64,000 bases of DNA. Source: Wenjunlia tyrosinilytica (GTDB lineage: Bacteria > Actinomycetota > Actinomycetes > Streptomycetales > Streptomycetaceae). The notes under the pieces are model-generated. The model did no database searches and was not told the DNA's origin. It saw only the letters and a list, made by a program, of their open reading frames with translations. The position numbers were made by a program, and so were the translations under genes. The stretch spans positions 457,892 through 521,891 of the forward strand of contig NZ_BMMS01000001.1 of NCBI RefSeq assembly GCF_014646055.1, in the 5' to 3' direction. Shown here piece after piece: positions 25,100 through 39,033 of the stretch (position 1 is the first letter of the stretch; every line of letters begins with the position of its first letter).

Positions 25100-26509
25100 T
25101 CATCTCGGATCCGGGGCGAGCAGCGGCCAGGGACGAGCGGCCTCCAACTGGGCGGCGAGAGCCAGCAGCGGCCCCTCCCCGCCGAACCGGCCGGAGAGCA
25201 TCATGCCCACCGGCAGCCCTTCGCCGGTCCGCTCCAGCGGCAGCGAGACCGACGGCAGGCCCGCGATGTTCCACGGCGCCGTGAACGGGGTGAATGCGAT
25301 CTGCGCCTCGAAGTCGGCGGCCGGGTCCCGGTCGTCGCGCAGCGAGCCCACCGGAGCGGGCAACTGGGCGAGGGTCGGGGTCAGCACGGCGTCGTACGGC
25401 GCCACCGCCTCCGTGAGCTTGCGCCCCACCGCCTGCAGGGCGGCCATCGCCGTGGCGAAGCCGACCCCGGTCACCGCTGGGCCCCGCGCGCGCAGCCAGC
25501 GGGTCAGCGGCATCAGCTCGCTCTCCCGCTCCGGGGCGACGGGCGCCAGCGCGGCCAGGACCGCCCACACGGGGGTGAACGGGTCCCGGTCGCCGGGGGC
25601 GAGGGGCTGGGCGATGTCGACGACCTCGTGGCCGAGTTCCGCCAGCAGCGCGGAGGTCTTCTCGTAGGCGTCGAGCACCTCGGGGGCCACCGTGACACCC
25701 GCGGGGTCGGGTTCGGCCCAGCGCGCGATCCGCAGCCGACCGGGGGCGTGCTCGGCCCAGCGCAGGAACGGGCGGTCGGGCGCGGGCAGCGAGGTGGGCT
25801 CGCCGGGCTCCTGGCGGGCCATCACATCCAGGAGCGCCGCCGTGTCCCGCACGGTGCGGGCGATCGGCCCGTGCACCGCCAGCCCGCTCACGTCCGCGAA
25901 GGGGGCGTTGCTGATGCGCCCGCGGCTCGTCTTGAGCCCGACCAGACCGCAGCAGCTCGCCGGGATACGGATCGATCCGCCCCCGTCACTGCCGTGGGCG
26001 GCGGGAGCGAGGCCGGTGGCGACGGCGGCGGCCGCACCGCCGCTGGAGCCGCCCGCGCCACGGGAGAGGTCGTAGGGGGTCCGCGCCGGCGGCGCGAAGC
26101 CCGGCTCGGTGTAGGCGGGCAGCCCGAACTCGGGGGTGCTGGTCTTGCCGAGCATCACCGTGCCCGCCTCGCGCAACAGCTCCACCAGCCGGGTGTCGAT
26201 GTCGGCCACGTGGTCGGCGAAGACGCCCGAGCCATAGGTCAGCCGCACTCCCTCGACGGGTGTCAGATCCTTCACCGGCAGCGGCACACCGAGCAGGGGC
26301 GGAAGCGGGCCGCCCTCCCTGAGCCTGCGCTGCGCCCGGCGGGCCTCGGCCAGAGCGCGCTCCCCGGTGACGGTCAGATAGGCGCCCACGGCGCCGTTGA
26401 ACCGCTCGATCCGCCGCAGGTAGTGCTCGGTGAGCTCCACGGGCGACAACTCGCCCGCGCGGACGGCCGCGGCCTGCTCCAGCATCGTCAGCTCATGGGG
26501 TTCGGCCAT
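25100..26509 (-). CDS. Amidase-signature family hydrolase
   Basis: A 469-residue amidase with the full Ser-cisSer-Lys triad: Lys80 in PVKDLTP, Ser155 in GGSSGGAAA and Ser179 in GSDGGGSIRIPA; the 24-residue Ser-Ser spacing matches the family. Members hydrolyse aryl, fatty-acid or peptide amides, and GatA is a specialised branch. No GatC or GatB lies nearby, so this is a stand-alone amidase of unknown substrate. No signal peptide is visible. The ATG at 26509 is divergent from the GH84 gene; downstream on this strand come the small ORF and malQ, about 165 bp away. Confidence 0.92.
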   Translation of the reverse strand: MAEPHELTMLEQAAAVRAGELSPVELTEHYLRRIERFNGAVGAYLTVTGERALAEARRAQRRLREGGPLPPLLGVPLPVKDLTPVEGVRLTYGSGVFADHVADIDTRLVELLREAGTVMLGKTSTPEFGLPAYTEPGFAPPARTPYDLSRGAGGSSGGAAAAVATGLAPAAHGSDGGGSIRIPASCCGLVGLKTSRGRISNAPFADVSGLAVHGPIARTVRDTAALLDVMARQEPGEPTSLPAPDRPFLRWAEHAPGRLRIARWAEPDPAGVTVAPEVLDAYEKTSALLAELGHEVVDIAQPLAPGDRDPFTPVWAVLAALAPVAPERESELMPLTRWLRARGPAVTGVGFATAMAALQAVGRKLTEAVAPYDAVLTPTLAQLPAPVGSLRDDRDPAADFEAQIAFTPFTAPWNIAGLPSVSLPLERTGEGLPVGMMLSGRFGGEGPLLALAAQLEAARPWPLLAPDPR

Positions 26510-26651: not shown

Positions 26652-29600
26652 GTGCACATCCGGCGACGCAGGTCGGTGGCGGCGGCCGGTGCGACAGCCC
26701 TCGTCGCGGCCGTGATCAGCGGAACCCCGGCGGCCGTGGCGGAGCCCACGGCCGCGCCTCCCAGACCCGCCGCATCCCCGGCGACGTCACCCGCCGCACC
26801 CCCTGCCGCGTCACCCGCCGCGTCACCCGGCCCCGACGTCCGCCCGCAGCCGCAGTCGCTGCGCCGTCAGGGCGCTTCCGTGCCCGTTCCCCGCACGGCC
26901 ACGGTCTTCGCGGACCCCGACGCCGACCGGTACGCCGTGGAGACGATCCGGTCCGTCCTGCGCTCGGCGGGCGCGACGAGCGTGCGCACGGCCGCACCCG
27001 ATGGGCCGGTCCCCGCGAGCGGCCTCCTGGTCTACGTGGACGGCCCCGGCGCCGACCGGGTACTGCGCTCGCTGAAGGCGTCCAAGCCCGCCGACCTGCC
27101 CGCGGGCGGATACGCTCTGGCCACCGGCCGGACGGGCGCACGCGATGCGGTGGCCCTGTCCGGCGCGGACGCCGAGGGCACCTTCCACGCCGCCCAGACG
27201 CTGCGCCAACTCGCCTCGCACCGCTCGTTCCCCGGAGTCGTGGTCGCGGACTGGCCGTCAACACCCGTGCGCGGCACGGTCGAGGGCTTCTTCGGGCAGC
27301 CCTGGACGCAGGCCCGGCGCCTCGCCCAGCTCGACTTCCTCGGCCGCACCAAGCAGAACCGCTACCTCTACGCTCCCGGTGACGATCCGTACCGCCAGGC
27401 CAAGTGGCGCGCCCCCTACCCGCGGGTGCAGGCGGCGCGGCTGCGGGAGCTGGCCCACCGGGCGGCCCGCAACCATGTCGTCCTCGCCTGGGCGGTCTCC
27501 CCCGGACAGCAGCTGTGCTTCTGGTCCGACAAGGATCTCGACGCGCTCACCGCCAAGTTCGAGTCGCTGTGGCGGCTGGGCGTGCGCGCCTTCCAGCTCC
27601 AGTTCGCGGACGTCTCCTACGACGAGTGGCACTGCCGCGCCGACCGGATCGCCTACAGGACCGGCCCGGCCGCGGCCGCCGAGGCCCAGGCCCATGTGGC
27701 CAACGAGATCGCCGCACGGCTGGCCGCCCGGCACCGCGGCGCGCCCGCCCTGTCCGTCCTGCCCACCGAGTACTACCAGGACGGCAGGACCCCGTACCGC
27801 TCCGCCCTGGCCAAGGCCCTCGCTCCGGGCATCGAGGTGGCGTGGACCGGCGTGGGTGTCGTCCCCAGCACCATCACCGGCGGCGAGATCGCCAGGACCC
27901 GTGAGATCCTCGGCCACCCCCTGGTCACCATGGACAACTACCCGGTCAACGACTTCGCCGACGACCGGGTCTTCCTCGGCCCCTACACCGGCCGCGACCC
28001 GGCCGTGGCCTCCACCTCCGCCGGGCTGATGGCCAATGCCATGGAGGAGCCCCTGGCCTCCCGGGTGGCCCTGTTCACGGCGGCCGACTACGCCTGGAAC
28101 CCCGGCGCCTACCGGCCGGGGCCGTCGTGGAAGGCGGCGCTTCGCGAGGTGGGCGACGGCTCCGACAGCCACCCGGGCGACGGCTCCGCAGACGCCCTGT
28201 CCGTCCTCGCCCGCAACAGCGCCTCCTCCGCCCTCGACCGGCGCGAGTCCGCCTACCTGGTCCCCCTGATCGACGACTTCTGGACCGCGTACCAGCGCCC
28301 CGGCGGCGATGTCTCCGCGCTGCGCTCGGCGTTCGAGGACATGGCCCGTGCGCCCCGGCGCCTGTCCGGCCCGCTCGCGCGCGAACTCGGTCCCTGGCTC
28401 GACCAGCTCGGCCGCTACGGCGAGGCGGGACGCACTGCCGTCGACATGCTCACGGCCCAGCGACGGGGTGACGGGGCGGCCGCCTGGAAGTCCCAGCTGG
28501 CGCTCCTGCGCGTCAAGCGCGAGCTGAACCGCTCCCGCGCCACCGTCGGCGAGGGCGTGCTCGGCCCCTTCCTGGAGCGGGCCCTGAGCGCCGCCAACCG
28601 CTGGACGGGGGTGAACGGGGACGGCCGCGCGGCGTCGAGCTCCTACGACACCGTCCGCCCCGAGGTCCGCGGAGGGCGTGGCGCGGGCGCCGCCGCGGAC
28701 AGCGACCCGGCGACCGCCTACCGCCCCTCCGGACCCGGCACGCTGACCATGCGCTTCGGCACCACCCGCCCGCTGGACAAGGTGACCGTCCTCGCCGGGC
28801 CCGCCGCCGACAGCGGCACCGGCACCGGCACCGGCACCGGCACCGACCACGGCACCGCCGCCGGCCCCGTCCCGCACGCGGGAGTCGAGGCCCATGTCCC
28901 CGGACGCGGCTGGCGGCGCCTCGGCGGCCTTCGCGCCGACTGGACGGAGCTTTCCGCCCGGGGCGCCGAGGCCGACGCGATCCGGCTGTCCTGGACCTCC
29001 GAGGCACCCGCCGTCCATGAGATCGTCCCCTGGTTCGCGGACACCCCGGCGGCCCAGCTCACCCTCCAGCGGTCCCGGGTGGACGTGGAGATAGGCGGGC
29101 CTTCGCAGACCCTGGACGCCGAACTCGATGCCACCCGCGCCGACGCCTCCAAGGGCAAGGTCGCGGCCCGCGCGCCCAAGGGCATGCGGGTCGACGCCCA
29201 CGGCCCGGTCACGCTGCGGCGCGGCGGCAGGGTCACCGTCCCCGTGAAGGTCACCGTGCCCAAGGGCACCGACCCCGGTGACTACTCCGTGCCCGTCCGC
29301 TTCGACGCCGGGGGCAGGACGGTCGAGGAGCATGTCCAGGTCCGCGCGTACCCGCGCACCGGCGGCCCCGACCTCGCCCGAGGCGGCAGGGCGGCATCGT
29401 CGGGCGACGAGACCCCCGACTTCCCCGCCGCCGCCGTCACCGACGGCGACCCGGGCACCCGCTGGTCCTCACCCGTCGAGAACGACGCCTGGGTCCAGGT
29501 CGAGCTGCCGAAGGCGGCACGGATCGGCAGGGTGGTCCTGCGCTGGCAGGACGCCCACGCCTCCTCGTACGAGATCCGGACCTCCCCCGACGGCCGCACC

Positions 29601-29759
29601 TGGACCACGGCGGCCACGGTCCGCCAGGGGCGCGGCGGCACCGAGTCCGTCCGCATGGACGCTCCCGGCACCCGCTTCGTGCGTGTCCAGGGCAAGCAGC
29701 GCGCCACCCGGTACGGCTACTCCCTCTACTCCGTCCAGGCCTACGCGGTCAGCCGCTGA
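26652..29759 (+). CDS. Secreted GH84 beta-N-acetylglucosaminidase-like protein with altered catalytic Asp pair
   Basis: A 1,035-residue exported protein. After an Arg-rich signal peptide and a Pro/Ala linker come a GH84/GH20-type N-terminal domain (about 65-195) and the GH84 barrel from VRGTVEGFFGQPW (about 203). A helical region, a discoidin-like region (about 670-800, interrupted by a GT repeat), a NEW3-like beta domain and a C-terminal F5/8 C (CBM32-like) domain (about 895-1035) follow. Characterised GH84 enzymes use adjacent Asp residues (F-D-D-I-S); here the segment is FADVSYDE with Ala319-Asp320, so the first, substrate-polarising Asp is missing. It may be catalytically altered or a carbohydrate-binding protein. 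The GTG start follows GAGGAGG. Confidence 0.85.
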   Translation: MHIRRRRSVAAAGATALVAAVISGTPAAVAEPTAAPPRPAASPATSPAAPPAASPAASPGPDVRPQPQSLRRQGASVPVPRTATVFADPDADRYAVETIRSVLRSAGATSVRTAAPDGPVPASGLLVYVDGPGADRVLRSLKASKPADLPAGGYALATGRTGARDAVALSGADAEGTFHAAQTLRQLASHRSFPGVVVADWPSTPVRGTVEGFFGQPWTQARRLAQLDFLGRTKQNRYLYAPGDDPYRQAKWRAPYPRVQAARLRELAHRAARNHVVLAWAVSPGQQLCFWSDKDLDALTAKFESLWRLGVRAFQLQFADVSYDEWHCRADRIAYRTGPAAAAEAQAHVANEIAARLAARHRGAPALSVLPTEYYQDGRTPYRSALAKALAPGIEVAWTGVGVVPSTITGGEIARTREILGHPLVTMDNYPVNDFADDRVFLGPYTGRDPAVASTSAGLMANAMEEPLASRVALFTAADYAWNPGAYRPGPSWKAALREVGDGSDSHPGDGSADALSVLARNSASSALDRRESAYLVPLIDDFWTAYQRPGGDVSALRSAFEDMARAPRRLSGPLARELGPWLDQLGRYGEAGRTAVDMLTAQRRGDGAAAWKSQLALLRVKRELNRSRATVGEGVLGPFLERALSAANRWTGVNGDGRAASSSYDTVRPEVRGGRGAGAAADSDPATAYRPSGPGTLTMRFGTTRPLDKVTVLAGPAADSGTGTGTGTGTDHGTAAGPVPHAGVEAHVPGRGWRRLGGLRADWTELSARGAEADAIRLSWTSEAPAVHEIVPWFADTPAAQLTLQRSRVDVEIGGPSQTLDAELDATRADASKGKVAARAPKGMRVDAHGPVTLRRGGRVTVPVKVTVPKGTDPGDYSVPVRFDAGGRTVEEHVQVRAYPRTGGPDLARGGRAASSGDETPDFPAAAVTDGDPGTRWSSPVENDAWVQVELPKAARIGRVVLRWQDAHASSYEIRTSPDGRTWTTAATVRQGRGGTESVRMDAPGTRFVRVQGKQRATRYGYSLYSVQAYAVSR
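28815..28844 (+). repeat. GGCACC hexanucleotide microsatellite inside the GH84 gene
   Basis: Five perfect GGCACC copies encode a Gly-Thr stretch in a linker loop of the discoidin-like region. Changes of one unit would keep frame. Confidence 0.85.
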
Positions 29760-31946: not shown

Positions 31947-31961
31947 TAGGAAAGTTTCCTA
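31947..31961. promoter_or_regulatory. CsnR box (ROK operator)
   Basis: A 15-bp palindrome TAGGAAAGTTTCCTA, perfect apart from its central base. Its core AGGAAAGTTTCCT matches the operator known for CsnR, the ROK repressor of chitosanase genes in Streptomyces. It begins about 7 bp after the predicted start site, so bound repressor would block transcription of its own operon. Confidence 0.85.
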
Positions 31962-32057
31962 ACAGTCCAACGTGCAAAACGCACTGTGATCAGGCACAAC
32001 GGACCCGAGTGACGTAGCGTACGCGCGAGAATGCCGAGGGAGGGGAACGAACAAGCC

Positions 32058-33275
32058 ATGGCCAGCACCCCGGGAACCCCGCGCCTGCTCAGGGCGATCA
32101 ACGACCGTGCCGCGCTCGACCTGCTGCTCGAGGAAGGACCCCTCTCGCGCACCAGGCTGGGGGCGCTCACCGGACTGTCCAAGCCCACCGCCTCCCAGCT
32201 GCTCGGGCGCCTCGAGGCGGCCGGGCTGGTCGTCCCGACCGGCACCACCGCCGGCCGCCCGGGTCCCAGCGCCCAGCTCTACGAGGTGAACCCGCAGGCC
32301 GCCTACGTGGCGGGCCTCGACGTCACCCCCGCGCGCATCCGCGCCGCCGTGGCCGACATCACCGGGAGCACGGTAGGGGGGTTCGAGCTGCCCACCCCCG
32401 GCCGCCGCGCCCAGGGCACGGTCGACCGCGTGCTGAAGGCGGTGGACGGGGCCCTCGGTGAGGCGGGTATCGGACGGGAGAAGCTGCACCGGGTGGTCAT
32501 CGGCACCCCGGGCGCCTTCGACCCCTCGACCGGACGCCTGCGGTACGCCCGCCACCTGCCGGGATGGCACTCCCCGCATCTGCTCGACGAACTCGCGGCC
32601 GCCCTCGGGGTGCCGCTCGAGGTCGACAACGACGTGAATCTCGCCGCCGTCGCCGAGCAGCGCATCGGCCACGCCAAGGACGTGGGCGACTTCGTTCTCC
32701 TCTGGGGGGAGGAGGGGATCGGCGCCGCGGTGGTCATCGGTGGGAGGCTCCACCGCGGCGCCACCGGGGGCGCGGGCGAGGTCGCCTTCATGCCCCTGCC
32801 CGGCACCCCCGTCGTGCGCAATGTCAGCCGGATGAACGAGGGCGGCTTCCAGGCACTCGCCGGCGCCCTGCCCGTTCTCCAGTTGGCCCGCGAACACGGC
32901 CTGTCCGCTCCGAACGCCGAGGAGGCACTCGTCGAGGCGCTCAACACCCCGGGCGCGGGTGACGCCGTGCTCGAGGAGTTCGCCCACCGCCTCGCGGTGG
33001 GCCTGGCCTCCATGGTCGCCGTCATCGACCCCCACCTGGTGGTCCTGGCGGGCGGAGTGATCACCGCGGGCGGCGAGCGCCTGCGTGCCCTGGTCCAGGC
33101 GGAGCTGGCGGAACTCGCCGTGCCCCGGCCCAAGCTCCAACTCACCGCAGTGACCGAGAACCCGGTGCTGTGCGGCGCCCTGCAGAGCGCGTTGTCCACG
33201 ACCCGGGACGAAGTATTCGACACCACCCTCACCACAGGCGCCACAGGCGTCTCGAAGGCCAGCAGTACCGACTGA
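32058..33275 (+). CDS. csnR: ROK-family transcriptional repressor of chitosan-oligosaccharide utilisation
   Basis: A 405-residue ROK regulator: an N-terminal winged helix-turn-helix (about 25-75, LSRTRLGALTGLSKPTASQLLGRLEAAGLV) and a sugar-kinase-like ROK domain (VAGLDVTPARIRAAVADI phosphate-loop region, EVDNDVNLAAVAEQ, GAGEVAFMPL). In S. coelicolor CsnR heads the same csnR-K gene order and represses chitosan-oligosaccharide uptake and chitosanase genes; sugar binding releases it. The ATG at 32058 follows GGGAGGGG; an ATG at 32031 would add nine residues but lies before that leader. The palindrome at 31947-31961 in its own leader implies autoregulation. The canonical ROK CxCGxxGC zinc motif is absent: the corresponding stretch reads VRNVSRMNEGGFQAL. 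Confidence 0.88.
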   Translation: MASTPGTPRLLRAINDRAALDLLLEEGPLSRTRLGALTGLSKPTASQLLGRLEAAGLVVPTGTTAGRPGPSAQLYEVNPQAAYVAGLDVTPARIRAAVADITGSTVGGFELPTPGRRAQGTVDRVLKAVDGALGEAGIGREKLHRVVIGTPGAFDPSTGRLRYARHLPGWHSPHLLDELAAALGVPLEVDNDVNLAAVAEQRIGHAKDVGDFVLLWGEEGIGAAVVIGGRLHRGATGGAGEVAFMPLPGTPVVRNVSRMNEGGFQALAGALPVLQLAREHGLSAPNAEEALVEALNTPGAGDAVLEEFAHRLAVGLASMVAVIDPHLVVLAGGVITAGGERLRALVQAELAELAVPRPKLQLTAVTENPVLCGALQSALSTTRDEVFDTTLTTGATGVSKASSTD

Positions 33276-33315
33276 CCCGCCGGACAAGACCTCTTCACCT
33301 CCGACCGCACCGCTT

Positions 33316-33343
33316 CACCTCGCAGCACCTCGCAGCACCTCGT
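33316..33343 (+). repeat. 10-bp direct repeat between csnR and csnE
   Basis: CACCTCGCAG occurs twice in tandem (33316-33335), followed by CACCTCGT. It lies in the 188-bp gap between csnR and csnE; no second CsnR box was seen there. Confidence 0.6.
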
Positions 33344-33463
33344 CACATCCCTCCATATCGCACGGCATCGGAACGGACGGGCCGCCATCCAGGTGGGCGG
33401 AACCCGCGCCGTCGGCCTCTCACACCCCGAACAGTCCGAACAAATACCCCGTAGGAGATCGGA

Positions 33464-34798
33464 ATGCCGCGAATTCACCGGGCTGCCGCAGCCGCTGCAG
33501 CGGCCACCGCCATAGCCCTGCTCGGCAGCGCGTGTACCGGCAGTAGTAGCGGCAGCGCGACGGACGACGCCAGCAAGGAGACCACCATCACCTTCTGGCA
33601 CGGCTGGAGTGCCGCGAACGAGGTGAAGGCGATCAACGACAACATCGCGGCCTTCGAGAAGGCGCACCCCAACATCCACGTCAAGGTCGTCAAGAACATG
33701 AACGACGAGAAGATCCAGCAAGCGCTTCGGGCCGGCGGCCCCAACGCCCCCGACGTGGTCTCCTCCTTCACCACCGACAACGTCGGCAAGTTCTGCGACT
33801 CCAAAGCGTTCGCCGACCTCGACCCCTTCCTGAAGAAGTCGCACGTCGACGTCGTCGACACCTTCCCGAAGCCCATGGCGGACTACACGCAGTTCGAGGG
33901 CAAGCGCTGCACCCTGCCCCTGCTGGGCGACGCCTACGGCCTCTACTACAACAAGGACGCGTTCCGGAAGGCGGGCATCAAGGCCCCGCCGAAGACGATG
34001 ACGGAGTTCAAGAAGGACATCCTGAAGCTGACCAAGGCCAAGGGGGACTCCTTCGAGCAGCTCGGCTTCATGCCGAACTTCCACGGCTACGAGTCCACGG
34101 CCACGCACCTCGCGGCGCAGTGGAACCCCACGTACTTCACCCAGGACGGCAAGGCGAACACCGCCAAGGACCCCGCGTTCACCAAGATGTTCAGGTGGCA
34201 GGCCGACGTGGTGAAGTCGCTCGGCGGGTACCAGAAGCTGGAGAAGTACCGCAGCACCTTCGGTGACGAGTGGGGGGCGAAGAACCCCTTCCACACCGGC
34301 CAGGTGGCCATGGCGATCGACGGCGAGTGGCGCGCGGGCATGGCCAAGTCCGCGGGGGTGAAGTTCGACTTCGGTGTCGCCCCGTTCCCCGTCCCCGACG
34401 ACCAGTTCGACACCTACGGCAAGGGCTACCTGTCGGGCACGATCATCGGCATCTCGAACACGAGCACCAAGCAGAACGCCTCGTGGGAGCTGCTGAAGTA
34501 CATGGCCCTCAACACCGAAGCGGTCGTCAACTTCTCCAACGCCATCCACAACGTCCCCTCGACGCTGGCGGCGCTGAAGTCGCCCGCGCTGAACAAGGAC
34601 CCGGACTTCCAGACGTTCGTGAAGATCGCTCAGCACCCGTACAGCAGTTCCACGCCCGCCAGCATCAACGGCGGCACGTACCAGCTCACCCTCCAGGACT
34701 TCGGCTACGCCTTCGAGAAGGGCAAGGAGCCGAACCTGGCCGACGGTCTGAAGGCCGTGGACAAGCAGATCGACAAAGACATCGCCCAGGCGAAGTGA
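33464..34798 (+). CDS. csnE: Sugar ABC transporter solute-binding lipoprotein
   Basis: A 444-residue family 1 extracellular solute-binding protein. The lipoprotein signal ends LLGSACTG, placing the lipid-modified Cys at about residue 24. TTITFWHGWSAANEVKAI and GEWRAG are typical of MalE-like sugar binders. By position in the csn operon it should capture chitosan oligosaccharides (glucosamine oligomers) for CsnF-CsnG. No ATPase gene is in the operon; as usual in Streptomyces, a shared ATPase such as MsiK probably energises uptake. Leader GGAGATCGGA precedes the ATG. Confidence 0.9.
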   Translation: MPRIHRAAAAAAAATAIALLGSACTGSSSGSATDDASKETTITFWHGWSAANEVKAINDNIAAFEKAHPNIHVKVVKNMNDEKIQQALRAGGPNAPDVVSSFTTDNVGKFCDSKAFADLDPFLKKSHVDVVDTFPKPMADYTQFEGKRCTLPLLGDAYGLYYNKDAFRKAGIKAPPKTMTEFKKDILKLTKAKGDSFEQLGFMPNFHGYESTATHLAAQWNPTYFTQDGKANTAKDPAFTKMFRWQADVVKSLGGYQKLEKYRSTFGDEWGAKNPFHTGQVAMAIDGEWRAGMAKSAGVKFDFGVAPFPVPDDQFDTYGKGYLSGTIIGISNTSTKQNASWELLKYMALNTEAVVNFSNAIHNVPSTLAALKSPALNKDPDFQTFVKIAQHPYSSSTPASINGGTYQLTLQDFGYAFEKGKEPNLADGLKAVDKQIDKDIAQAK

Positions 34799-34821
34799 CG
34801 AGCGGCAACTGGTGAACTGAC

Positions 34822-35817
34822 ATGGCATCCGTCCTCGGCACGGCACAGGCGGACGCGACCGTCCCGGCGGCGCCTTCCCCGCAGTACACACTGCGCAGGA
34901 AGCGCCGCCGGGAGCGGGTGCGCAACCTGGCCTTCCTGTCCCCCTGGCTGATCGGCTTCAGCGTCTTCTTCGTCTACCCCCTGGTCTCGACCGTCTACTT
35001 CTCCTTCATGAAGTACGACGGCTTCAAGCCACCGGTGTGGAACGGGGTCGACAACTGGAAGTACGTCTTCAGCGACTACCCCTTCTTCTGGCCGGCCCTG
35101 TGGAACACGCTGTGGCTGGTCGTGGTGATGGTGACCCTGCGGGTGGCCTTCGGCCTCGGCATCGGCCTGCTCATCACCAAGATCAAGAGCGGCGCGGGCT
35201 TCTTCCGCACGGCCTTCTACCTGCCCTACCTGGCCCCGCCGGTCGCCGCCACCATGGCGTTCGCGTTCCTGCTCAACCCCGGCACGGGCCCGGCCAACAA
35301 CATCCTGCACAAGATCGGCCTGCCGCAGCCCGGCTGGTTCAACGACCCGGCCTGGTCCAAGCCGGCACTGACCGTGCTCGCCCTGTGGGGCATCGGCGAT
35401 CTGATGGTCATCTTCATGGCGTCACTGCTCGACGTGCCCAAGGAGCAGTACGAGGCGGCCGAGCTGGACGGCACGGGACCGTGGCAGAGGTTCCGCTACG
35501 TCACCCTGCCGAACATCTCCCCGATCCTGATGTTCGCCGTGGTCACCGGTGTGATCCAGACCATGCAGTACTACACCCAGCCCCTGGTCGCCGGAAAGGT
35601 CGCCAGCGGTGTGATCGGCGGCTCCGGCCAGCAGTTCGAACCCGGCTACCCGGACAAGTCCACGCTGACCCTGCCCCAGCTCGTGTACAACCTCGGCTTC
35701 CAGCGTTTCGACACCGGATCGGCGTGTGTGATCGCCCTGGTGCTGTTCGCCCTCGCCATGGTGTTCACGGCGCTCCTGATGCGCCGCCGCAGCGGCTTCC
35801 TGTCGGCGGAGGACTGA
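34822..35817 (+). CDS. csnF: Sugar ABC transporter permease, MalF type
   Basis: A 331-residue inner-membrane permease. Six hydrophobic helices start with LAFLSPWLIGFSVFFVYPLVSTVYFSF. The cytoplasmic EAA loop EQYEAAELDGTGPWQRFRYVTLPNISP is intact (EAAxxxGxxxxxxFxxxxLP), giving the ATPase contact site. It pairs with CsnG to import the sugar delivered by CsnE. The gene starts 24 bp after csnE and ends 5 bp before csnG, so the three are cotranscribed. Confidence 0.92.
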   Translation: MASVLGTAQADATVPAAPSPQYTLRRKRRRERVRNLAFLSPWLIGFSVFFVYPLVSTVYFSFMKYDGFKPPVWNGVDNWKYVFSDYPFFWPALWNTLWLVVVMVTLRVAFGLGIGLLITKIKSGAGFFRTAFYLPYLAPPVAATMAFAFLLNPGTGPANNILHKIGLPQPGWFNDPAWSKPALTVLALWGIGDLMVIFMASLLDVPKEQYEAAELDGTGPWQRFRYVTLPNISPILMFAVVTGVIQTMQYYTQPLVAGKVASGVIGGSGQQFEPGYPDKSTLTLPQLVYNLGFQRFDTGSACVIALVLFALAMVFTALLMRRRSGFLSAED

Positions 35818-35822
35818 GCGAC

Positions 35823-36731
35823 ATGACCGATGTGATGACCCCCGCCACCACCCCCGCGCTCGGCGAGCGCCCGGCCCACAGGTCTGCCGCGGCCCGGACC
35901 GCCCGCCGCAGGTCGGCGCTGCACTGGATCGCCGTGCACTCGCTCGGCATCGCCGCCGCGCTGTTCTTCGTCCTGCCGTTCGTCTTCGTCCTCCTCACGG
36001 CGCTGATGAGCGATCAGCAGGCGCTGACCCGCGACCTGTGGCCCAGGACCTGGGAGTGGAGCAACTTCTCGACCGTCTGGGACACCCCGGGCTTTCTGAC
36101 GTGGTGGCGCAACACCCTGCTGTACGCGGGAGCGGGCACGCTCTTGACCGTGGTCTCCAGCATCCCGGTCGCCTACGCGCTGGCGAAGTTCCGCTTCCGC
36201 GGCAGAAACGTTGCTCTCATGCTCGTCATCTCCACGATGATGCTGCCGCCGCAGGTGATCATTGTTCCGATGTACTTGTTCTGGGCGAAGCAGCTGCACC
36301 TGTCGGGGACGCTGTGGCCGCTGATCATCCCCATGGCCTTCGGCGACGCGTTCACGATCTTCCTGCTGCGGCAGTTCCTGCTCACGATCCCCAAGGAGTA
36401 CGTGGACGCGGCGAAGGTCGACGGCTGCGGGGAACTGCGCACCCTGGTGCACGTCATCCTGCCGATGGCCAAGCCCGCGATCGCCGCGGTCGCCCTGTTC
36501 CAGTTCTTCTACTGCTGGAACGACTACTTCGGACCGCAGATCTACGCCAGTGAGAACCCTGGCGCCTGGACGCTCTCCTACGGCCTCGAGTCGTTCAAGG
36601 GCGCCCACCACACCAACTGGAATCTGACGATGGCCGCCACCGTGCTGGTCATGGCACCGGTCATCGTCGTCTTCTTCTTCGCGCAGAAGGCCTTCATCGA
36701 AGGCGTGACTCTCACGGGGGTTAAGGGATGA
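35823..36731 (+). CDS. csnG: Sugar ABC transporter permease, MalG type
   Basis: A 302-residue permease of the MalG type with six hydrophobic segments, starting WIAVHSLGIAAALFFVLPFVFVLL. The EAA-like loop EYVDAAKVDGCGELRTLVHVILPMAKP is present. It forms the transport channel with CsnF. The ATG at 35823 follows the csnF stop by 5 bp. Its TGA overlaps the csnH ATG (ATGA), indicating coupled translation with the glycosidase. Confidence 0.92.
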   Translation: MTDVMTPATTPALGERPAHRSAAARTARRRSALHWIAVHSLGIAAALFFVLPFVFVLLTALMSDQQALTRDLWPRTWEWSNFSTVWDTPGFLTWWRNTLLYAGAGTLLTVVSSIPVAYALAKFRFRGRNVALMLVISTMMLPPQVIIVPMYLFWAKQLHLSGTLWPLIIPMAFGDAFTIFLLRQFLLTIPKEYVDAAKVDGCGELRTLVHVILPMAKPAIAAVALFQFFYCWNDYFGPQIYASENPGAWTLSYGLESFKGAHHTNWNLTMAATVLVMAPVIVVFFFAQKAFIEGVTLTGVKG

Positions 36732-37981
36732 AACTCGCAGTCGTCGGCGGTGGCTCCACCTATACGCCCGAACTCATCGACGGCTTCGCGCGCCTGCGCG
36801 AGTCGCTGCCCATCGAGGAACTGGTCCTCGTCGACCCGGCCGCCGACCGCCTGGAGCTGGTCGGGGGCCTGGCCCGGCGGATCTTCGCCAAGCAGGGCCA
36901 CACGGGGAAGGTCGTCACCACCTCCGACCTGGACGCCGCGGTGGCCGACGCCGACGCCGTGCTGCTGCAACTGCGGGTCGGCGGGCAGGCGGCACGCAAC
37001 CAGGACGAGACATGGCCGCTGGAGTGCGGCTGCGTCGGCCAGGAGACCACGGGCGCGGGAGGGCTGGCCAAGGCCCTGCGGACCGTCCCGGTGGTGCTCG
37101 ACATCGCCGAGCGGATCGCCCGCGGCAACCCCGACGCGTGGATCATCGACTTCACCAACCCCGTCGGCATCGTCACACGCGCGCTCCTGCAGGCCGGGCA
37201 CAGGGCCGTGGGCCTGTGCAACGTCGCCATCGGCTTCCAGCGCAGGTTCGCCGCGCTGCTGGGGGTGACCCCCGACCAGGTCACGCTCGACCACGTGGGG
37301 CTCAACCACCTCACCTGGGAGCGGGCCGTCCGCCTCAACGGGGAGGACGTCCTGCCCAAGCTGCTGGTCGAGCACGGCGACGCGGTCGCCGAGGACCTGC
37401 GCATGCCGCGCTCCCTGCTCGACCGGCTCGGCGTCGTACCGTCCTACTACCTGCGCTACTTCTACGCGCACGACGAGGTGGTGCGCGAGCTCAAGGTCAA
37501 ACCGTCGCGCGCGGCCGAGGTCGCCGCCATGGAAAGGCAGTTGCTCGACCTGTACGCCGACCCGTCCCTGGACGAGAAGCCGGAGCTGCTGGCCCAGCGG
37601 GGCGGCGCCTTCTACTCGGAGGCCGCGGTGGCGCTGGCGTCCTCGCTCCTGCGGGACACAGGCGACGTCCAGGTGGTCAACACCCTCAACAACGGCACCC
37701 TGCCCTTCCTCCCGGACGACGCGGTCATCGAGGTCCCCGCCACGGTGGACGGCTCCGGCACCAAGCCGCTGCCCGTCGCCCCGCTGGAGCCCCTGTACTC
37801 GGGCCTGATCGCGAATGTGACCGCGTACGAGCACCTGGCGCTCGAGGCCGCCCTGCACGGGGGCCGCGACCGGGTCTTCAAGGCACTGCTCGCCCATCCG
37901 CTGATCGGCCAGACCGAGTACGCGGACGCCCTGACCGACCGGCTCATCGCGCACAACCGCGAGCACCTGGCATGGGCGTGA
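36728..37981 (+). CDS. csnH: GH4 NAD/Mn-dependent glycosidase
   Basis: A 417-residue GH4 enzyme, annotated by family as 6-phospho-beta-glucosidase. The Rossmann start MKLAVVGGGSTYTPELIDG binds NAD. The metal site is formed by Cys in VGLCNVAIG and His in GLNHLTWER. IDFTNPVGIVTRAL is the further GH4 signature. GH4 enzymes use a redox-elimination mechanism and usually act on 6-phosphosugars. Here sugars enter by an ABC system, which does not phosphorylate, so either CsnK phosphorylates first or the enzyme takes unphosphorylated glucosamine oligomers. The ATG overlaps the csnG stop. Confidence 0.9.
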   Translation: MKLAVVGGGSTYTPELIDGFARLRESLPIEELVLVDPAADRLELVGGLARRIFAKQGHTGKVVTTSDLDAAVADADAVLLQLRVGGQAARNQDETWPLECGCVGQETTGAGGLAKALRTVPVVLDIAERIARGNPDAWIIDFTNPVGIVTRALLQAGHRAVGLCNVAIGFQRRFAALLGVTPDQVTLDHVGLNHLTWERAVRLNGEDVLPKLLVEHGDAVAEDLRMPRSLLDRLGVVPSYYLRYFYAHDEVVRELKVKPSRAAEVAAMERQLLDLYADPSLDEKPELLAQRGGAFYSEAAVALASSLLRDTGDVQVVNTLNNGTLPFLPDDAVIEVPATVDGSGTKPLPVAPLEPLYSGLIANVTAYEHLALEAALHGGRDRVFKALLAHPLIGQTEYADALTDRLIAHNREHLAWA

Positions 37982-39033
37982 CCCGCTTGACCGCCGCCGT
38001 CCAGCAAACCCACGAGGCCATGCCACCCACTCCTCTGCTCCCGCGAGGCGTCCTCGCCGTGGACGCGGGCAACAGCAAGACCGACGTCGCCCTGGTCGCC
38101 CCGGACGGCTCGCTGCTCGGCACCGCCCGGGGCGGCGGCTTCCAGCCCCACGAGACGGGCCCGGAGGCCGCGGTCGCCACTTTGGTGCCCCTGGTCACGT
38201 CGGCCGCCGCCCAGGCGGGCCTGGCCGTTTCGCGGGCGGTCCCGCTGGTCGAGCACGTCTCGGCGTGCCTGGCCAACGCCGATCTGCCCATTGAGGAACA
38301 GCGACTCGAACAGGCCATCAGAAGACATGGCTGGGGCCGTACTGCGCGCGTCGCCAACGACACCTTCGCCCTCCTGCGGGCGGGCGTCGAGGAGCCGCGC
38401 GGAGTGGCCGTGGTCTGCGGAGCGGGCATCAACTGCGCGGGACTGCTGCCCGACGGGCGCACGGCCCGCTTCCCCGCCCTCGGCAAGATCTCCGGTGACT
38501 GGGGCGGCGGCGGGCATCTCGCCGAGGAGGCCATGTGGTGGGCGGCGCGAGCCGAGGACGGGCGCGGTCCCGGGACATCCCTGGCCACGGCCATGCCGAG
38601 GCACTTCGGGCTGACCTCGATGCAGCATCTCATCGAGGCCCTGCACTTGGGGGAGATCGCCTCCGTACGCCGCCACGAACTGACACCCGTGCTGTTCGAG
38701 GAGGCGGAGGGGGGTGACCCGGTGTCCGTGGCGCTCATCCACCGGCAGGCGGAGGAGATCGTCGCCCTGGCCGTGGTTGCGCTGCGCCGCCTGGACATGC
38801 TCGACGGCCCGGCCGACGTCGTCCTCGGCGGAGGCGTGCTGGCGGCCCGCCGTCCGCTGCTGATGAGCGCCGTGGAGGAACTGCTCAAGGAGCGGGCCCC
38901 CCACGCCGTCACCCGGGTGGTCACCACTCCCCCGGTCGTGGGCGCGGCCCTGCTGGGCCTCGACCACACCGAGGCGACACCCGCGGCCCGCGGACGGCTG
39001 CGCACCGCCTACGAGAGCGGGCTGACGGCGTAG
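37978..39033 (+). CDS. csnK: BadF/BcrA-type sugar kinase (N-acetylglucosamine/glucosamine kinase-like)
   Basis: A 351-residue ASKHA-fold kinase. LAVDAGNSKTDVALVAPDGS is the phosphate-1 loop, VANDTFALLRAG the substrate-side motif, VVCGAGINCAGL phosphate-2 and VLGGGVLAARRPLL the adenosine motif. The closest family by pattern is the BadF/BadG/BcrA ATPase group that includes N-acetylglucosamine kinases; its role in the csn operon should be phosphorylation of glucosamine or its oligomers. The GTG at 37978 overlaps the csnH stop as GTGA; an ATG at 37972 and an ATG at 38020 (after GAGG) are alternatives. The operon ends at the hairpin just downstream. Confidence 0.85.
   Translation: MTRLTAAVQQTHEAMPPTPLLPRGVLAVDAGNSKTDVALVAPDGSLLGTARGGGFQPHETGPEAAVATLVPLVTSAAAQAGLAVSRAVPLVEHVSACLANADLPIEEQRLEQAIRRHGWGRTARVANDTFALLRAGVEEPRGVAVVCGAGINCAGLLPDGRTARFPALGKISGDWGGGGHLAEEAMWWAARAEDGRGPGTSLATAMPRHFGLTSMQHLIEALHLGEIASVRRHELTPVLFEEAEGGDPVSVALIHRQAEEIVALAVVALRRLDMLDGPADVVLGGGVLAARRPLLMSAVEELLKERAPHAVTRVVTTPPVVGAALLGLDHTEATPAARGRLRTAYESGLTA

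Follow-up and report, generated by a model that had tools for sequence, protein, structure and literature searches.

The best described relatives of the protein reported here are BtGH84 (BT_4395), CpNagJ and human O-GlcNAcase (hOGA), members of glycoside hydrolase family 84 (GH84) with a catalytic Asp-Asp pair. The hOGA residues that touch N-acetylglucosamine (GlcNAc) are D174, N280, K98, G67, N313 and D285, and Lys98 forms a salt bridge with Asp174, the assisting Asp (PMC10636738). As of 2018, GH84 was among the minor families with activity undocumented from actinobacteria in CAZy, according to PMC6097792; later examples are BbhIV and BbhV of Bifidobacterium bifidum (PMC10245121). Here we describe a GH84-like protein of 1035 residues encoded in a 64,000-nucleotide stretch of the Wenjunlia tyrosinilytica genome (contig NZ_BMMS01000001.1; hereafter the window), in a frame that starts with GTG and is open throughout. 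It lacks the assisting Asp and its Lys partner, and judging from aligned sequences the loss of the Asp-Asp pair, Lys included, is a mark of a Streptomycetaceae subfamily and not of the window protein alone. We consider it rather probable that the protein is a GH84-derived secreted pseudoglycosidase, which would bind an amino-sugar polymer, perhaps chitosan, rather than cut it. Among the matches listed in the open-licence literature, there was no paper on this GH84-like subfamily.

The closest solved relatives by sequence were BT_4395 (E 1.4e-70), then NagJ. In the phmmer alignment, FADVSYDE of the window protein lies opposite FDDISGE of BT_4395, which places Ala319 at Asp242 and Asp320 at the general acid/base Asp243; a separately run MAFFT alignment gave the same columns. 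The first-pass annotation of this frame had read Ala-Asp at residues 319-320 in place of the classical Asp-Asp and had taken the missing residue to be the acetamido-assisting Asp, and both points hold. In the alignments to BtGH84, no alternative Asp-Asp pair was in line with the catalytic position. Codon 319 is GCG here and CAG in the nearest relative; because two base changes separate them, a single-base error is unlikely.

Two further replacements had escaped that annotation: Lys166 of BtGH84 is Gly243 in the window protein, and Trp337, presumably a residue of the N-acetyl pocket, is Met427. BtGH84 numbers were counted from Tyr282, whose own number we take to be correct. Since K98 of hOGA salt-bridges D174, we treat the loss of the Asp and the loss of the Lys as the loss of one functional unit. 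If, as we assume, hOGA G67, N280, D285, N313, K98 and D174 are equivalent to BtGH84 G135, N339, D344, N372, K166 and D242, respectively, then the window protein is without two of the six GlcNAc-contact residues (D174 and K98) and retains the other four, as Gly212, Asn429, Asp434 and Asn462. The Y282 equivalent is also present. These five are common to the window protein, BtGH84 and CpNagJ, whereas Asp242, Lys166 and Trp337 of the characterized enzymes are Ala, Gly and Met here.

Membership of the GH84 fold family is clear: the protein scored 337.8 bits against PF07555 (NAGidase), for which the cut-off is 25, and it is the only PF07555 match in its own genome of 8.49 Mb. The NCBIfam equivalog model for beta-N-acetylglucosaminidase, NF041654, gave 302.9 bits, below its curated cut-off of 1000. 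We built an AlphaFold2 model of residues 60-660 from 70 aligned sequences (predicted local distance difference test, pLDDT, 89.8; predicted template-modelling score 0.89). The superposition, which the first-pass annotation had suggested as a check, revealed the GH84 fold: the top VIA-align match was BtGH84 (Z 47.8, root-mean-square deviation (rmsd) 2.8 Å, 539 aligned), CpNagJ reached Z 44.3 over the same region, and the top Foldseek match was CpOGA. The pLDDT was below 50 at residues 403-405, 431-434 and 506-508, the first two stretches being at active-site positions. Such a fold would suit a GH84 hydrolase or phosphorylase of the usual kind that retains some activity, and acid/base mutants of bacterial OGAs become phosphorylases (PMC10636738), but the window protein has lost the other Asp plus its Lys, and phosphorolysis would be disfavoured by the probable secretion. 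We therefore regard residual activity of this kind as very improbable.

We surveyed the active-site residues of 175 sequences, BtGH84 included, comprising 162 distinct domains. After two partial domains (L024 and L022) were dropped, there remained a near set of 105 picked by similarity to the window protein (itself included), 54 other GH84 domains and BtGH84. Thirty distant members, all with distinct domains, were hand-picked from intermediate-score genomes to span four genera, giving a pooled set of 135 subfamily domains. The Asp-Asp pair was present in 0/135 subfamily domains and in 54/54 of the others, which are mostly the best Pfam scorers, a choice favouring classical residues. The Lys166 equivalent gave the same counts. 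The 54 domains with K166, D242 and D243 include Streptomyces paralogues of the K/DD type (e.g. L002 and L025), which belong to the same barrel family as the window protein and share its SYxxWxC loop. One of the dropped sequences, L022 (genome G335), is a GH84 fragment that aligns with PF07555 over the final third of the model only, possibly from a decaying gene.

In BtGH84 numbering, position 242 of the near set is Gln in 100/105 (E in 4, A in 1), as the first-pass annotation had stated for Streptomyces homologues. Position 166 is Gly in 103/105 (E 1, A 1), position 243 is Asp in 103/105 (N 2) and position 337 is Met in 99/105 (L 4, V 2). Among the 30 distant members, position 166 is always Gly, position 242 is L in 15, Q in 7, S in 3, D in 2 and P, T or V in one each, and position 243 is D in 23, N in 3, Q in 3 and G in 1. 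Position 242 is thus Q, L, E, S, D, A, P, T or V over the 135 domains; Ala was seen in the window protein only, and Leu is frequent in other genera. The acid/base Asp is absent from 9/135 (pairs QN 2, DN 2, SQ 3, VN 1 and LG 1). Other residues are kept to different degrees: G135 in 116, N372 in 113, Y282 in 106, T310 in 115, N339 in 130 and D344 in all 135, with N372 in 9/30, G135 in 11/30 and D344 in 30/30 distant members. The Gln-Asn members L092 and L133 have neither catalytic Asp. Arg317 occurs in 3/4 sequences with Glu319 and in 0/101 others, the three standing at two places in the tree, so positions 317 and 319 seem, from these sequences, to vary together.

A 92-tip tree (27 near, 30 distant and 34 other domains, with BtGH84) recovered the subfamily as monophyletic with a support of 0.861; its basal branch is a Gln-Asp member, the departures being nested inside. 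In a 96-tip tree built from near relatives plus other domains, the near set had a support of 0.977. By our reading of the tree, which is not a formal reconstruction, the acid/base Asp appears to be absent at about five places. A family-wide search gave matches in 285 of 394 Streptomycetaceae genomes, 258 at subfamily score and 27 at classical-range or fragment scores only, a split with a thin margin (6e-120 vs 2e-122) whose active-site residues were read in the 135 distinct domains only. Among 296 genomes drawn at class level, none outside Streptomycetaceae exceeded 364 bits. A clean score gap between the subfamily and other GH84 domains (525 vs 388 bits) was rejected as a sampling artefact, other Streptomycetaceae genera falling within it at 404-490 bits when scored alike. 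Because these intermediate-score sequences were read, our preference moved from alternative catalysis by the Gln or Glu325 to a pseudoglycosidase.

The drift is concentrated at the active site. Thirty-three columns are near-invariant in the 54 other domains; in the subfamily, their residue is retained at a mean of 0.71 for 10 active-site columns, a set taken from the GH84 literature, vs 0.94 for the other 23 (Mann-Whitney p 6e-4, which overstates the evidence as kinship is uncorrected). The median ratio of nonsynonymous to synonymous change (dN/dS) was 0.286 in the near set vs 0.546 in 42 other domains, a rough comparison since synonymous change is close to saturated and the two sets are of unequal depth. 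The window copy deviates at 8 of the 138 columns conserved at ≥95%, the second highest figure of 105 (median 1), and is more distant than its sister from other near members in 98/102 comparisons, which share one branch. With L072 as outgroup, it has 29 unique changes vs 21 in the sister, and its frame is open; decay of the window copy was considered and is not established by these figures.

The prevalence of Gln raises the question of an amide-assisted hydrolase, in which Gln319 would orient the acetamido group and Asp320 serve as acid/base, the window lineage with Ala having lost activity. The endo-beta-N-acetylglucosaminidases of GH85 have an amide at the acetamido-orienting position, Asn171 in Endo-A, and hydrolysis by N171A is undetectable (PMC2646837). 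Both the near-constancy of Gln (100/105) and Asp320 (103/105) in the near set and the basal position of a Gln-Asp member within the subfamily fit such a mechanism, and the Gln-Asp site of Streptomyces-type members may be catalytically active, in a form not so far known from GH84. Yet the Lys partner and the Trp have been lost as well, with Gly and Met as the usual replacements, and at the Gln position Leu, Ser, Thr, Pro or Val occurs in distant members and Ala in the window protein; GH85 comprises active enzymes of another family, with Asn and not Gln. We judge amide-assisted hydrolysis unlikely. The first-pass annotation had left two options, that another residue took over or that the subfamily binds without cutting. 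The second is the one we favour; a single takeover residue does not agree with nine residue types at position 242 in 135 domains and with an acid/base Asp absent from 9.

Among solved structures, the nearest to the C-terminal CBM32 are of the chitosan-binding DD1/DD2 type, both by sequence and by structure. The best phmmer match in the PDB was to modules of the Paenibacillus sp. IK-5 chitosanase (E 4.5e-20; 35-37% identity), and the model gave Z 23.0, 22.7 and 22.4 to chitosan-binding modules 1 and 2 (rmsd 1.3-1.5 Å) and 18.5 to the next match; the CBM32 structure of C. perfringens GH84C with galactose reached 17.1. DD1 and DD2 belong to a GH8 chitosanase (PMC5635096), the window domain being likened to them by sequence and model, and similar modules occur on actinobacterial chitosanases (PMC5635096, PMC4663542). 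On this likeness, the CBM32 perhaps binds chitosan. Both CBM32 and NEW3, the additional domains named in the first-pass annotation, are found by Pfam. A matching CBM32 was present in 100/105 near members vs 6/54 other GH84 domains, some loci truncating the frame: locus L006 ends before the CBM32, and its longer copy L084 carries one. All 20 distant relatives fetched with flanks have the CBM32, and the order GH20b-barrel-NagJ_C-CBM32 is kept in 20/20.

The gene itself also keeps its place. Among 82 distinct near loci, genes for HNH (76/82), MalQ (75/82) and MscS (61/82) proteins and a ROK gene (50/82) were found over 7 kb, some loci being too short; 20 distant loci had HNH in 20/20, MscS in 20/20 and MalQ in 17/20. 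In the window, the first gene of a csnR-csnEFGHK-type operon starts ~2.3 kb downstream of the GH84-like gene, and clusters of the csnREFGHK type serve the uptake of chitosan oligosaccharides (PMC6097792). A scan of the window for the CsnR box returned 2 matches at up to 2 mismatches vs 0.16 expected, one of them a perfect box upstream of the ROK gene. The genome of 8.49 Mb has 13 sites at up to one mismatch, and each of its two other perfect boxes stands at the 5' end of a chitosanase gene, GH75 in one case and GH46 in the other.

The CBM32 type and the nearby operon would also point to chitosan as the target of a glycosidase with a changed substrate, for example a beta-glucosaminidase acting on the non-acetylated glucosamine of chitosan; Asp320 would be the acid and a different carboxylate, conceivably Glu325, the base or nucleophile. 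Residues of the N-acetyl pocket, whose roles are in part our assumption, are replaced in the subfamily, D344 (135/135) and N339 (130/135) are kept, and Glu325 is present in 105/105 of the near set. In the distant members, though, Glu325 is His or Asp in 8/30 and Asp320 is absent from 7/30, and no upstream CsnR box was found. Glu325 as a substitute catalytic acid was accordingly set aside, its constancy in the near set weakened by these 8/30, and we hold the changed-substrate reading to be more doubtful still than the amide-assisted one.

A non-catalytic role is preferred because the Asp-Lys unit is absent from all members read, acid/base and hydroxyl-contact residues have been lost in several lineages, and fold, domain order and CBM32 are kept. 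What is established comprises the replaced residues, the shared branch, a drifting site whose acid/base is gone in some members, and the conserved architecture and gene position. As a course of events, we propose that the acetamido-assisting Asp and its Lys partner were both replaced in the subfamily ancestor, which should abolish substrate-assisted catalysis, and that the GH84 fold and domain order were retained, with a CBM32 of chitosan-binding type in nearly all members read. Outside the cell, the protein would bind chitosan, partly deacetylated chitin or fungal wall and so serve in adhesion, localization or capture. Loss of activity, ligand, secretion and cellular role are the parts of the pseudoglycosidase reading that we infer.

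Several observations weigh against a pseudoglycosidase. In the near set, Gln319 (100/105), Asp320 (103/105) and Glu325 (105/105) are almost fixed and the barrel is the best-conserved part of the protein, which would also be expected of an altered active site that still functions. Asp occupies position 242 in two distant members, both with Asn at 243, and the 54 comparison domains, as largely the best Pfam matches, are biased to classical residues. At one position that we take to contact chitosan, this CBM32 has Gln and not Glu. The CsnR box AGGAAANTTTCCT was found in 0/96 regions upstream of subfamily genes within 2 mismatches, window included; CsnR control of the GH84-like gene is thus not supported, nor, because of this absence, is co-regulation with chitosan genes, and the csn operon may be nearby only through synteny of the chromosome region. 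A DasR-type site was found in 1/96 upstream regions at up to 4 mismatches, equal to one shuffled set. Finally, Asn in place of either Asp is reported to slow hOGA and not to abolish its activity (PMC4263850). Taking these points together, we give catalysis of some kind by the subfamily a substantial but minor share of our expectation.

We are evenly divided on the broader proposal of family-wide pseudo-O-GlcNAcases, in which an ancestral Asp-Lys loss would have yielded a conserved extracellular amino-sugar receptor in roughly two thirds of the Streptomycetaceae genomes searched. It is likewise a balanced question whether such proteins, which match Pfam's beta-N-acetylglucosaminidase model, would parallel in nature the Asp-to-Asn mutants made in the laboratory as traps. 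The laboratory variants CpOGA D298N and BtGH84 D242N/D243N, solved with O-GlcNAc peptides or oxazolines according to their PDB titles, have the GH84 fold minus one catalytic Asp; they are engineered single changes, whereas the natural subfamily has lost the Asp-Asp pair and the Lys. If the subfamily is non-hydrolytic, it is mislabelled by any hydrolase annotation that follows from Pfam's name, beta-N-acetylglucosaminidase, and a conserved receptor for amino sugars close to a chitosan-uptake operon has so far been overlooked. If it is hydrolytic, GH84 holds a variant capable of catalysis in the absence of the Asp-Lys unit that defines the family.

Table. Features of the GH84-like gene and of associated loci. 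Coordinates refer to the window unless a locus of the same genome is named.
Feature	Coordinates	Strand	Evidence
GH84-like protein, 1035 aa, probably secreted	26652..29759	+	ORF, translation, Pfam
Probable Sec signal peptide, residues 1-30 (RRRR, hydrophobic core, AVA-E)	26652..26741	+	by eye from translation
GH20b-type N-terminal domain (Glyco_hydro_20b), residues 61-201	26832..27254	+	Pfam PF02838, E 1.3e-17
GH84 (NAGidase) barrel, residues 207-502	27270..28157	+	Pfam PF07555, E 7.2e-101; model match to BtGH84
Gly243, where BtGH84 has K166 (partner of assisting Asp)	27378..27380	+	alignment
Ala319 (GCG), where BtGH84 has assisting Asp D242	27606..27608	+	alignment, codon
Asp320, retained, equivalent to general acid/base D243 of BtGH84	27609..27611	+	alignment
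Glu325 of YxEWHC loop; Glu in 105/105 near and 22/30 distant members	27624..27626	+	alignment
Met427, where BtGH84 has Trp337	27930..27932	+	alignment
Asp434, equivalent to BtGH84 D344; kept in 135/135	27951..27953	+	alignment
NagJ_C post-catalytic domain, residues 538-641	28263..28574	+	Pfam PF21774, E 4.9e-18
Region 642-828, mostly beta in model, no family assigned	28575..29135	+	predicted structure
NEW3 (NPCBM_assoc) domain, residues 829-882	29136..29297	+	Pfam PF10633, E 5e-6
CBM32 (F5/8 type C), residues 916-1026, nearest to chitosan-binding modules	29397..29729	+	Pfam; PDB phmmer; model
Perfect CsnR box AGGAAAGTTTCCT upstream of ROK gene	31948..31960	+	motif scan of window
csnR-csnEFGHK-type operon: ROK regulator, sugar ABC transporter, GH4, BadF-type kinase	32031..39033	+	Pfam, CsnR box; second permease from ORF list
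GH75 chitosanase gene at perfect CsnR box	L179:3269-3991	+	own genome
GH46 chitosanase gene at perfect CsnR box	L180:3298-4251	+	own genome

Secretion of the GH84-like protein is probable from its translation. The other genome of the genus that was searched (G001, by inference Wenjunlia vitaminophila) has five PF07555 matches. In the window, an amidase gene (25100-26509, minus strand) lies between malQ and the GH84-like gene, and a similar gene occurs in 4/82 near loci and also in L084 and L230.

This CBM32 has four other matches in its own genome, two of them in genes immediately preceded by a CsnR box with one mismatch. The first (L181:1668-3395, minus strand) is a 576-residue frame combining a ricin-B domain with the CBM32; its first 200 residues are without a Pfam match, making it a candidate chitosan-active protein. 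The second (L182:899-2356, minus strand) joins the CBM32 to a calcineurin-like phosphoesterase.

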